A stretch of 64,000 bases of DNA, taken from assembly GCF_009299475.1 (NCBI RefSeq), contig NZ_WBSN01000003.1, forward strand, positions 1 to 64,000, read 5' to 3'. Both the position numbers and the translations under genes were made by a program. Below the pieces are notes generated by a model. The model was not told where the DNA came from, did not search any database, and saw only the letters and a program-made list of their open reading frames with translations. Below are positions 26,653 through 51,736 of the stretch, piece by piece (within the stretch, counting starts at the first letter, position 1; each line of letters begins with the position of its first letter). Origin of the DNA: Bifidobacterium avesanii (GTDB taxonomy: Bacteria; Actinomycetota; Actinomycetes; Actinomycetales; Bifidobacteriaceae).

Positions 26653-26779
26653 TCTGCCCAATCTGTGCCTTCACATTGCAGGATTGGGCAGAAACGCAGG
26701 ATGAGAAGCTCTCTTGCAACGCTCAGCTTCCGTTCCTGCCCAATATCGCAATGTACGATCGCAGATTGGGCAGGAACGG
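26653..26779. repeat. paired CCAAnCTG hairpins, locus 1
   Basis: Hairpin 1a: 26653-26662 pairs with 26683-26692 (TCTGCCCAAT arm). Hairpin 1b: 26730-26744 pairs perfectly with 26765-26779 (CCGTTCCTGCCCAAT arm). Both loops begin CCAAT and end CAG...TTGG, the top shared with loci at 40543 and 49030. The two stems share CTGCCCAAT, so cross-pairing between hairpins is possible. The preceding 26419-26650 has only degenerate CGGTCTG/CGGTCCG runs and no gene. Confidence 0.85.
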
Positions 26780-40443: not shown

Positions 40444-40542
40444 GGCGGGCCTCCTTGCCGGTGTGTGATTGCGTCCGTTTCTCAATTATGCGCATGCACG
40501 TCGCTTGGCCTAATTCGCCCTATCCTGTCATCGCATTCTGGC

Positions 40543-40668
40543 CCGATCGTTCCAACTTGTGTTTCCGAAATCGCAGATTGGAACGATCGGACCGTTTTCG
40601 TGCCCTTGCGGGGCTTGTTTTGCCGTTGATCGTTCCAAGCTGTGCCAATCGGGACGCAGGTTGGAACG
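40543..40668. repeat. paired CCAAnCTG hairpins, locus 2
   Basis: Hairpin 2a: 40543-40555 (CCGATCGTTCCAA) pairs perfectly with 40578-40590. Hairpin 2b: 40631-40642 pairs with 40657-40668 with one mismatch (CGTTCCAA arm). The tops match loci 26653 and 49030, but the arm CGTTCC is specific to this locus and shared by both hairpins. Confidence 0.87.
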
Positions 40669-40691
40669 AATGCATATTTCGATCCGCCAGC

Positions 40692-40850
40692 TTGAGCAAA
40701 TCCAGTGTGCTTGAGGGGAAATGGGGGTGCGGACGAAAAGTTGGACGCTTTGGCGTCCAACTTTTCGTCCGCACCCCCGAGTGCACGAGTCGCCCATTGG
40801 ATTCGCTCAATCCGCGTCTGGTAGCCGGCGGATTGAGCGGATCCAGTGCG
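40692..40850. repeat. GAGCGAATCCAGTG three-arm element with 26-bp perfect hairpin
   Basis: Three arms: 40692-40707 (TTGAGCAAATCCAGTG), 40795-40816 inverted (CATTGGATTCGCTCAATC...) and 40829-40850 direct (CGGATTGAGCGGATCCAG...). Arms 2 and 3 form an ~18-bp stem over 12 bases. Between arms 1 and 2 sits a separate perfect inverted repeat, 40723-40748 with 40753-40778, a 26-bp stem on a TTTG loop. The same arm order recurs at 47875-47973 without the 26-bp hairpin. Confidence 0.88.
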
Positions 40851-44703
<3,853 letters not shown>

Positions 44704-48080: not shown

Positions 48081-48986
48081 ATGCCTCAAAAGCAAATTGA
48101 ACGCAAAGCACTGATCGTCGGCATCATCGTCAACGTCACGACGGTGATCATGGGCATGATCGTGTTCTTCATGACCGGCCTCAAGGCCATGTTCCTCGAC
48201 ACCACCTTCACCGTGATCTCGGTGATCTCCGGGCTGGTGGCCGTCTTCCTCTCCTCGCACACCATCCGCACCTCCGACCGCTTCCCCAACGGCAAGTTCG
48301 CCCTCGAGCCGATCTACGCCATCTGCAAGGCCCTGCTCACCATCTCCCTGCTCGCCTTCTCCCTGCTCGACGTGACGCAGGTCGCCTGGGACTACTTCGT
48401 TCTCGGCGAGGGCGAGCGCATCGAAACCGGCCCGGTGGTGATCTACGAGATCGTCACCGTGGTCATCTGCTTCGCCCTGTTCGTCTACTATCGGCGGCGG
48501 AACCGCAAATTGCGCGGCGCGAGCACCATGCTCATCGCCGAGCAGAACAGCACGCTCATCGACGCCGCCATGTCGTTCGGCATCGGCGTGGTGGCCGTGT
48601 TCCTGTTCCTGCTGCCCGCCGGCACCCCGCTCGACTTCCTGCACTACACCGGCGACTTCTTCATCACGCTGGCGATCGTGCTGCTCACGGTCAAGGAGCC
48701 GTTCGGCGTGCTCAAGGACGCGTTCGTGGAGCTCGTGGGCGGCGTGCACGACGACGAGGAGACCAACGGCTTCGTGCAGGAGGCGGCCCTGCGTCATCTG
48801 CCCGCCGGCACGGAATACGAGAAGACGCTGGTGTTCAAGACCGGCATGAACTACACGGTGGACGTGTATCTGGCCGGCGCGTCCGACACGATCGACGTGG
48901 CGGATCTGGTGGCGTGCAAGCGCAGGCTGGAGAGGGAGCTCACGAAGCGCCTGCACATCGTGGACGTGGATTTCGTGTTCGACTGA
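48081..48986 (+). CDS. cation-efflux (CDF-like) transporter with altered metal site
   Basis: 301 residues; AAAGGAAGG seven bases upstream of the ATG. About six spans and a C-terminal ferredoxin-like domain ('YTVDVYLAGASDTIDVADLV...RRLERELTKRLHIVDVDFVFD', pieces), the CDF layout. The span-2 motif normally Dx3D/Hx3D reads 'DTTFTVISVISGL', keeping one Asp, and span 5 reads 'STLIDAAMSFGIG'. The canonical tetrahedral site is therefore incomplete, so transport of Zn/Fe/Mn is likely but not assured. Monocistronic. Confidence 0.8.
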   Translation: MPQKQIERKALIVGIIVNVTTVIMGMIVFFMTGLKAMFLDTTFTVISVISGLVAVFLSSHTIRTSDRFPNGKFALEPIYAICKALLTISLLAFSLLDVTQVAWDYFVLGEGERIETGPVVIYEIVTVVICFALFVYYRRRNRKLRGASTMLIAEQNSTLIDAAMSFGIGVVAVFLFLLPAGTPLDFLHYTGDFFITLAIVLLTVKEPFGVLKDAFVELVGGVHDDEETNGFVQEAALRHLPAGTEYEKTLVFKTGMNYTVDVYLAGASDTIDVADLVACKRRLERELTKRLHIVDVDFVFD

Positions 48987-49029
48987 CGCGTCTGCCTGTT
49001 CGCACGTCCCGTCCGTCCGTGAATCTCCC

Positions 49030-49164
49030 ATTCGGTCCAATCTGCGCCTCCAAAATCACAGCTTGGACCGAATGCGCGATTTGCGGCACAATGCGAACGA
49101 TAACAATCGGCCGATCGGTCCAAGCTGCACCGTCAGGAGTGCAGGTTGGACCGATCGGCCGATT
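49030..49164. repeat. paired CCAAnCTG hairpins, locus 3
   Basis: Hairpin 3a: 49030-49040 (ATTCGGTCCAA) pairs with 49063-49073. Hairpin 3b: 49105-49123 pairs perfectly over 19 bp with 49146-49164 (arm contains CGATCGGTCCAA). Tops CCAATCTGCG...CACAGCTTGG and CCAAGCTGCA...GCAGGTTGG match the loci at 26653 and 40543; the arm CGGTCC is locus-specific. Between the CDF gene and cysS. Confidence 0.9.
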
Positions 49165-49207
49165 TGCGTTGCGTGCGTTGCGTTGCGTGCTTGGCGCTGT
49201 GCGGGGC

Positions 49208-50854
<1,647 letters not shown>

Positions 50855-50977
50855 GAGCGTATGCGCGAAACCAGACAAGGCGGCGGTGCGGTTCCACGCT
50901 GTGACGGGACGGGCGTGTAGGGTGACGGTCGGAAACGCGAATCGGCGAACGCAATTAGGTAACGGCGAGGTGACACA

Positions 50978-51736
50978 ATGGGAGACATGGCCAAACCGCA
51001 AGTGCTTATCCTCCAACACGTCGCTTGGGAGCGTCCGGGCAGGATCCTGCAGAATCTCGAGGATCTGGGGCTCGAATACCAGACGATGAACATCGCGTCG
51101 AAGAAGAACCCCGATCTGCCCGACTTCAAGGACGTCGCCGGAGTGGTGGTCATGGGCGGTCCCATGGGTGCGCTCGACTACGACGACTATCCCGGGCTCA
51201 AGGCGGAGGCCAAGCTGGTGCGCGCCGCCGTGAGCGTGGGCAAGCCGGTGCTCGGCGTGTGCCTAGGCCATCAGATCATCGCCACCGCGCTCGGGGCGAA
51301 GCTCTCCAAGGGGCCGGCGCCGGAGATCGGGTTCGCGCCGATCAAGCGCGTGGACAAGCACGACTTCTTCTCCATGTGGGACAAGCAGATCAACGTGCTG
51401 CACTGGCACAACGACGTGGTGGGCCTGCCCGAAGGCGCGCAATTGCTTGCGCGCACGTCCGGCACCAAGGTGCAGGCGTTCCGCGTCGGCTCCGCGCTGG
51501 GCATGCAGTTCCACCTCGAGGTGACCGCCCAGCTGCTCGAGGACTGGCTCGCCGAGCCGTCCATGGTCAAGGACCTCAAGGCCGCCGGGCTTTCCAAGTC
51601 GCAGCTGCGCGACCAGTTCGCCGAATTCAACCCCACGCTCGAGCCGCTCGCCGAACAGGTGTTTTCCGGCTTCGCGGCCCGATGCAACACGTACGCGAAG
51701 GCGCTCGCGGCCAACGCGGACAAGGGCGACAAGTAG
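50978..51736 (+). CDS. class I glutamine amidotransferase-like protein
   Basis: 252 residues; GCGAGG seven bases before ATG 50978. GATase1 triad: nucleophile Cys in 'GVCLGHQIIA', His in 'MQFHLEVT' and the following Glu. Layout resembles GMP-synthase-like GATases (YfeJ/ GuaA-like stand-alone amidases) that hydrolyse gamma-glutamyl compounds. No synthetase partner is adjacent, so it may act alone on an unknown substrate. Confidence 0.85.
   Translation: MGDMAKPQVLILQHVAWERPGRILQNLEDLGLEYQTMNIASKKNPDLPDFKDVAGVVVMGGPMGALDYDDYPGLKAEAKLVRAAVSVGKPVLGVCLGHQIIATALGAKLSKGPAPEIGFAPIKRVDKHDFFSMWDKQINVLHWHNDVVGLPEGAQLLARTSGTKVQAFRVGSALGMQFHLEVTAQLLEDWLAEPSMVKDLKAAGLSKSQLRDQFAEFNPTLEPLAEQVFSGFAARCNTYAKALAANADKGDK

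Follow-up and report, generated by a model that had tools for sequence, protein, structure and literature searches.

REP sequences and BIMEs have long been known, to our knowledge without a settled function. ERIC sequences are intergenic imperfect palindromic repeats of about 127 bp, the copies of which are alike along their whole length, and proteins of the Lrp/AsnC family wrap DNA as oligomers that bind several sites set at regular intervals along one face of the helix. The elements described here lie in a stretch of 64,000 nucleotides from Bifidobacterium avesanii (the window). They resemble ERIC sequences as intergenic palindromic repeats of similar length, but here mainly half-sites and spacing are kept; by description only, they can be likened to Lrp/AsnC wrapping sites as regularly spaced sites on one helix face.

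In the sections of PMC2817692 that deal with them, BIME/REP sequences are portrayed as extragenic, dispersed, species-specific palindromes with regular spacing and alternating orientations; binding of proteins and a part in chromosome organisation have been suggested for them, and REP-bearing strains without a cognate RAYT are also mentioned. The elements described here are, like those of enterobacteria and Pseudomonas, extragenic, dispersed and regularly spaced palindromes (43 and 13 loci in the genome of the window), with alternating orientation and a pitch of 83, 82 or 63 bp. They differ in having centres of 12–21 nt, outer half-sites that are not like the inner ones, and a diagnostic base common to a locus. 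Set against the REP sequences in Table 1 of PMC2817692, the consensus of the main family, CATTCGKTCCAAnCTGCG (K = G or T), is without the GTAG/GTGG foot. Because the GTAG foot is absent and no RAYT was found in the two carriers of this family that were tested, the elements are called BIME-like and membership of REP/BIME is not claimed.

The E. coli gyrase motif obtained by Topo-Seq is given, in the relevant part of PMC6379681, as 130 bp long, symmetric and phased in GC content at 10.75 bp; gyrase cleavage sites are reported there to be overrepresented in a subset of BIME-2 elements. Compared by these features and not position-wise, the present elements share the length of about 130 bp, the symmetry and the helically phased G/C content, but they have nearly invariant half-sites that fall into classes, where the gyrase motif is degenerate.

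Results

Elements in the window

Palindromes were present at 26653, 40543 and 49030, where the original prediction had put them. They form three doublets:

49025..49161, no strand: element of class GGTCC, a twofold-symmetric doublet with a pitch of 83 bp
49036..49067, no strand: first palindrome core of the GGTCC element, TCCAAtCTG-14-CAGcTTGGA
49119..49150, no strand: second palindrome core of the GGTCC element, TCCAAgCTG-14-CAGgTTGGA
49068..49118, no strand: 51-bp stretch between the two cores, made up of the inner arms and the linker
40540..40676, no strand: element of class GTTCC, a doublet with cores at 40551-40582 and 40634-40665 and a pitch of 83 bp
26654..26773, no strand: element of class CTGCCC, a doublet with cores at 26654-26691 and 26736-26773 and a pitch of 82 bp

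The GGTCC element is flanked by convergent genes, a cation-efflux gene (about 48081-48986, plus strand) and cysS (49208-51019, minus strand; TIGR00435). The length of the 51-bp stretch between its cores is kept at most loci; its sequence is not.

A covariance model was built from 59 palindromes of the GGTCC/GTTCC type (family A) from the genome of the window. The four palindromes at 40540-40676 and 49025-49161, which are among the 59 training rows, scored 52–68 bits. The pair near 26653 was barely seen by this model (best E 0.1, not above noise). The six hairpins had been taken as one family; this holds for 40543 and 49030, and the pair at 26653 belongs to a separate class, CTGCCC. The shared top CCAAnCTGyr claimed for that pair is found only in the outer half-sites of the class, the inner half-sites having the consensus CCAATatTGCAAT. 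An Rfam search of the 64-kb window gave nothing at the element sites; its matches above the gathering score were one 5S rRNA and four tRNAs.

Further palindromic repeats lie beside the 40540 element, at 40680-40860: an inverted repeat GGGGGTGCGGACGAAAAGTTGGACG, and GATTCGCTCAATCCGC..GCGGATTGAGCG. A GGATTCGCTCAATC sequence at locus L072 of Bifidobacterium moraviense DSM 109958 (G079) is similar to them.

Dispersion in the genome and in the genus

In the genome of the window (G000; 2.68 Mb, 46 contigs), the exact pattern CCAANCTG-N{4,40}-GCAGNTTGG gave 61 strand matches (31 plus, 30 minus) at 37 sites, and its reversed control gave 0. Among 24 other genomes of the genus, it matched 31/31 times on the two strands in Bifidobacterium vespertilionis RST16 (G016), 3/2 times in G023, 1/2 times in G012 and at most once per strand in the rest. 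Two of the G023 sites are longer palindromes; G023 and G012 carry long palindromes of the CCAATCTGCCGACGCTGAC type, a family topped by CCAAnCTG with a longer stem, two of which lie 103 bp apart in G023.

When the covariance model was searched genome-wide, sites beyond the training rows were found. In its own genome 150 candidates were scored, so that the model counts are lower bounds; in the genus search, run with stricter filters, it scored in three of 112 genomes (G000, G016 and G079). By a loose scan of the fetched loci, at least 96 GGTCC/GTTCC palindromes were found at 43 loci of G000, comprising 33 doublets, four singles, three triples and three arrays, two with six palindromes and one with five. 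The family A sites had been collected with a pattern that allowed up to 4 mismatches under conditions, and decayed copies are therefore missed. The predicted dispersed family with locus-specific complementary stems was confirmed, and it is much larger than the six hairpins reported.

The CTGCCC class gave 18 exact sites in G000 (reversed control 1 in one run and 0 in another) and none in the other 111 genomes of the genus (reversed control 0 throughout). When its loci in G000 were scanned more loosely, 26 palindromes were counted at 13 loci, all of them doublets. G000 has three sequence classes, GGTCC, GTTCC and CTGCCC. A CTGCCCAGTTtGCG/CGCAAACTGGGCAG variant of the CTGCCC class was seen in G016 (L186), downstream of an orthologous ABC transporter.

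In G016, 17 regions holding a part of its matches were scanned. Eight regions of B. moraviense were fetched, one of which (L078) gave no palindrome in the scan; at six of the seven loci scanned the palindrome was single, and at L075 a second, weaker match to the covariance model lies 105 bp away. No description of such repeats in Bifidobacterium was found among the titles and abstract openings of the literature consulted.

Geometry, symmetry and helical phase

Adjacent GGTCC/GTTCC palindromes in G000 are set at a pitch of 83.0 bp in 41 of 53 pairs, 83.5 bp in six and 82 bp in three; 81, 61 and 102 bp occur once each. The start-to-start distances in G016 are 82–83 bp in 12 of 14 cases, the other two being 92 and 94 bp. 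The pitch of the CTGCCC class is 82.0 bp in 12 of 13 doublets and 82.5 bp in one.

The CTGCCC consensus has outer half-sites CCAATCTGcG, inner half-sites as given above and a symmetric linker, gaTnAGaG...CtCTnAtc. Since outer and inner half-sites are unlike and the symmetry is centred on the middle of the linker, the whole doublet is the unit: a twofold-symmetric DNA element of about 130–140 bp with four inverted half-sites, not one hairpin. In family A the consensus arms are CatTCG on the outside and CgaTCG on the inside, and the C-run of the loop lies by consensus on the outer side of both palindromes, which is a majority trend and no rule.

Doublets of exact geometry (25 of family A and 12 of CTGCCC, the pair at L020 being left out) were compared pairwise. 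Agreement was 0.89–0.93 in the conserved columns, which were chosen from the same data, and only 0.43–0.45 outside them; the best ungapped pair reached 0.72–0.74 at most.

The mean A/T content of the aligned elements showed a best period of 10.3 in family A (41 pairs; column permutation p 0.0005), 10.1 in the CTGCCC class (12 doublets) and 10.4 in family B, a family of related genomes described below (49 pairs; column permutation p 0.001); the permutations treat columns as independent. The phase is carried by the degenerate columns in family A, by the conserved columns in family B and by both in CTGCCC: degenerate columns alone were phased in A (10.2, p 0.0003) and CTGCCC (9.9, p 0.002) and not in B (p 0.51), and with conserved columns alone a phase was seen in CTGCCC and in B (both p 0.0003) and not in A (p 0.25). 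The elements are thus symmetric, about 130 bp long and phased in GC content at about 10.5 bp, as are gyrase sites.

Covariation of the arms

Complementarity of the stems was found overall, with 81.3% of stem cells paired as against 24–41% with slid partners. The covariation score lay above all 500 shuffles, and cells paired and cells changed on both sides also exceeded the shuffles. Column pairs in which both sides had changed (13 vs. 12.1 shuffled) and further pair types (35 vs. 35.6 shuffled) were not in excess. The N of CCAAnCTG, which lies within the supposed stem, is an exception to the complementarity claimed: in family A it is complementary in 28% of 96 palindromes (38% in shuffled ones). 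The loop columns of A are likewise less complementary than shuffled columns. Family B has no unpaired column within its stem, so that the argument from such a column against pairing rests on A.

A structured RNA would keep its pairing by way of G.U intermediates on the transcribed strand, and G.U should then be preferred among single-step departures from pairing. On the sense strand in codirectional contexts, no significant preference was found for family A (G.U 85 vs. A.C 75, p 0.48) or for family B (44 vs. 36, p 0.43), and at convergent A loci, read on the plus strand, A.C exceeded G.U (43 vs. 26, p 0.053).

The most strongly covarying column was K (27 GC, 27 TA, 5 other and no wobble). Between arms of adjacent palindromes K agreed at 0.86, compared with 0.51 between loci; the next column, position -9, gave 0.55 vs. 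0.40. Adjacent palindromes with equal K arms were concordant in 41 cases vs. 3 (permuted fraction 0.52), a count that took in 87 of the 96 palindromes, the nine with unequal K arms being left out. The concordance would fit a single recognition specificity at each locus. That the agreement within loci stems from duplication of a single palindrome was not favoured, because K alone exceeds the agreement between loci by more than 0.15. Weaker correlated complementarity was seen in A at -4, -5, -8, -9, -10 and -12, which a plain dimer site need not have; correction of palindromes by template switching could add it.

The original prediction had concluded that pairing itself is kept. This was not upheld, for G.U has no significant preference over A.C on the sense strand in two families, the A stem has an unpaired column and its loop columns are less complementary than shuffled ones, the arms of a CTGCCC "hairpin" are unlike half-sites, each matched by an arm of the other hairpin, and the covariation is strongest at a single base with two states, chosen for the locus as a whole, in a DNA element whose geometry is rigid. 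The RNA reading was rejected on the lack of significant G.U preference, the unpaired A stem column and the unlike CTGCCC arms.

Position relative to genes

Genes were called by our own codon-usage caller, and gene distances are therefore approximate; only loci flanked by called genes on either side were used, which left 63 of 69 A loci and 12 B loci. None of the 63 A loci lies inside a called gene. They fall between codirectional (34), convergent (19) and divergent (10) genes, the convergent excess over background gaps being weak (19/63 vs. 8/54, p 0.08). Within 60 bp lie 36 of 72 facing 3' ends, compared with 7 of 54 facing 5' ends (p 1e-5). For the CTGCCC class the bias to 3' ends is weak: the numbers within 60 bp are 4 of 15 for facing 3' ends and 0 of 7 for facing 5' ends.

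U-tracts, which had been stated to be lacking at the six hairpins, were mostly absent: in family A, of 192 arm ends, 26 have TTTT at a distance of 8–20 nt outside the core and 11 have TTTTT. A GC-rich stem followed by a U-tract, as in an intrinsic terminator, was tested on A and is not its usual form. At the cysS junction (48900-49300) one weak terminator-like match was found, where 0.3 were expected. The terminator reading was rejected on the few U-tracts, this single weak match and the counts of gene context, and the earlier view that the elements are not simple terminators mostly stood.

The 20 neighbour proteins scanned, which include an alanine racemase, an amino-acid permease, DapB, a radical-SAM protein, DnaB and a glutamine synthetase, contained no obvious regulator and no common pathway. 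A putative LacI-type operator (TTGTGAGCGCTCACAA or close) lies within the linkers of three elements (L009, L024 and L056).

Corresponding sites in related species

At the cysS/cation-efflux junction, relatives carry palindromes of other sequence. One such family, B (CGRCCGTAASTCA-21-TGASTTACGGYCG), occurs in arrays of 2–5 with short A/T flanks and, in 22 fetched regions, had a pitch of 63.0 bp in 49 of 52 adjacent pairs. A pattern search of the genus gave matches in 10 of 112 genomes, the highest counts being 74 and 40, where the reversed pattern matched once at most; by eye, the B motif is present in seven of the ten, and G019, G094 and G096 have different sequences. Palindromes of family B or like it stand at the cysS junction in five of the six B carriers seen (G092, G065, G067, G043 and G041, not G001). 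On a cysS tree of 30 rows, one change is needed for the three A carriers as a group and one for the six B carriers (G022 lying outside the tree); the A clade also includes G019, which is without A, and the wider B clade includes G047 and G099, which are without B.

Other repeats were also seen at this junction. L106 and L123 have GTGGTACGTCATC/TTGTC-type palindromes 135–136 bp apart, and L118 and L121 have one palindrome of this type with another sequence 135 bp away. In G016 and G079 (L097 and L099), GTCATCCTGAGCG..CGCTCAGGATGAC repeats stand where G000 has its element. A family C is present in four exact copies in G019.

Five of 41 B loci share an intergenic region with an A or CTGCCC element, at four distinct regions, one of which (L162) was fetched because of the sharing; this is a weak argument for replacement of A and B within the same intergenic regions. 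Downstream of the ABC transporter that precedes 26654, G016 has the CTGCCCAGTTtGCG variant and G001 and G092 have family B; neither was found in G041 or G019 (900 bp), G079 being covered for 286 bp.

One element occupies the same gene end in all three of G000, G079 and G016 (L024/L077/L081). Its second palindrome starts with GATCGGTCCAA, GATCGCCCCAA and GAATCGTTCCAA, respectively, and is symmetric in G079 and G016 and has a K mismatch in G000; the first palindrome of the G079 copy is degenerate. Symmetric changes were also seen between the family B orthologues of G001 and G041 (L144/L147).

Close copies and transposases

A single close pair of elements was found in G000, at L020 (C26:1-6200), where two copies are 91.6% identical over 154 bp within a duplicated stretch of 1516 bp that is itself 85.4% identical. 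Outside L020, the best blastn alignments of at least 90 bp between elements are about 77–81% identical. Recent transposition is unsupported, since the sole close pair sits in a larger duplicated stretch and the next pairs reach only these values. A third, more distant gene copy follows the segmental duplication of about 1.5 kb at L020.

A search for RAYT/Y1_Tnp (PF01797) in 39 genomes, a set without G079, G092, G067, G041, G043 and G065, gave none in G000, G016, G001 or G022 and matches only in G017 and G038.

Discussion

We hold, with roughly equal belief and doubt, that the elements are BIME-like docking sites for one or more sequence-specific DNA-bending or DNA-wrapping proteins and not RNA hairpins. 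The reading draws on the dispersion, geometry, phasing, symmetry and class concordance of the elements, the 3'-end bias of GGTCC/GTTCC and an RNA-pairing signature that is not significant. It is also favoured by the symmetric substitutions seen between orthologues and by the duplication at L020, in which the element (91.6%) is more alike than the whole stretch (85.4%). Spacing that is fixed without sequence, together with symmetry, A/T phasing and near-invariant half-sites, points to a sequence-specific protein along one face of the helix. Each locus would be one DNA site, in its usual form a doublet of about 130–140 bp in which four half-site copies of about 14–16 bp stand as two inverted pairs, with twofold symmetry about the middle of the linker and A/T-rich positions in step with the helix. 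A putative protein would sit on the half-sites and probably bend, wrap or bridge the DNA. Several paralogous proteins, or several specificities of one, could give rise to the three classes of G000 and to the agreement within loci at the diagnostic base. Given that the sites are intergenic, are biased to positions shortly after stop codons and occur in dispersed copies, the likely role would be an architectural, BIME-like one: chromosome architecture, the handling of supercoils or, at gene ends, insulation, as has been suggested for enterobacterial BIMEs.

Several points count against the docking-site reading. The degenerate columns of B and the conserved columns of A are unphased, the pitch has exceptions (61, 81, 82, 92, 94 and 102 bp), complementarity extends to -4, -5, -8, -9, -10 and -12, and B. 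moraviense has mostly single palindromes at the loci scanned. The excess of A.C over G.U at convergent A loci, the weak 3'-end bias of CTGCCC and the lack of an obvious regulator among the 20 neighbours belong here too.

Other explanations share parts of this evidence. Docking of DNA gyrase at strong wrapping sites, which would meet positive supercoils at gene ends and need no further protein, would account for the length, symmetry, phasing and 3'-end bias, all of which resemble the E. coli motif as presented in the part of PMC6379681 that describes it. We regard it as unlikely, since near-invariant half-sites and three locus-concordant classes are unexpected from an enzyme that reads bendability alone, and since the attraction of gyrase to downstream regions is, according to the same part of PMC6379681, not hard-wired in sequence. 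The clade-restricted dispersed families, symmetric ends and subclasses could also be those of decayed non-autonomous mobile elements of the MITE/REP type, the ends of which were both recognised by a transposase now lost or unseen, whence the agreement within loci. That origin seems quite improbable. Outside L020 the elements have diverged to about 77–81% at best, yet the conserved columns stay at 0.89–0.93 and the spacing is fixed, which argues against neutral decay; the Y1 transposase, the one family searched for, is absent from G000 and G016.

Hairpins acting in transcripts, as bidirectional terminators or protectors of 3'-UTRs, would fit the location near stop codons, the mild convergent excess, stems with changes on both sides, the palindromes of other sequence at the cysS junction of many relatives and the short A/T flanks of family B. 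Exact linker lengths would be needless in a single strand, however, and with ten of 63 A loci between divergent genes, no Rfam match at the elements of the window, few arm ends with a U-tract, the sense-strand G.U and A.C counts of A and B, the unpaired A stem column and the outer/inner asymmetry of CTGCCC, an RNA function appears very unlikely. Helically phased palindrome pairs are typical of looping repressors, and the presumed LacI-type operators in three linkers would also suit multi-operator sites of an ordinary transcription factor acting on the neighbouring genes; the bias to gene 3' ends and the lack of a common pathway among the 20 neighbours scanned make such a function hardly to be expected.

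The docking-site reading can be extended, tentatively and with considerable doubt, to a fast-evolving chromatin "address code" in Bifidobacterium. Each genome would have several paralogous, sequence-specific wrapping proteins, each with its own class of twofold-symmetric and helically phased sites near gene ends. From clade to clade the half-site sequence would be replaced, as in A, CTGCCC and B, some of which share intergenic regions, and the pitch would stay near whole helical turns.

The families are unlike in sequence and have one kind of geometry, in which spacing, symmetry, helical phase and a class-defining base are kept. Separating the features that are kept from those that are not makes the function of the elements testable in bifidobacteria. 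If a class-specific wrapping protein does act on them, Actinobacteria would have in it a nucleoid protein that is addressed by sequence.
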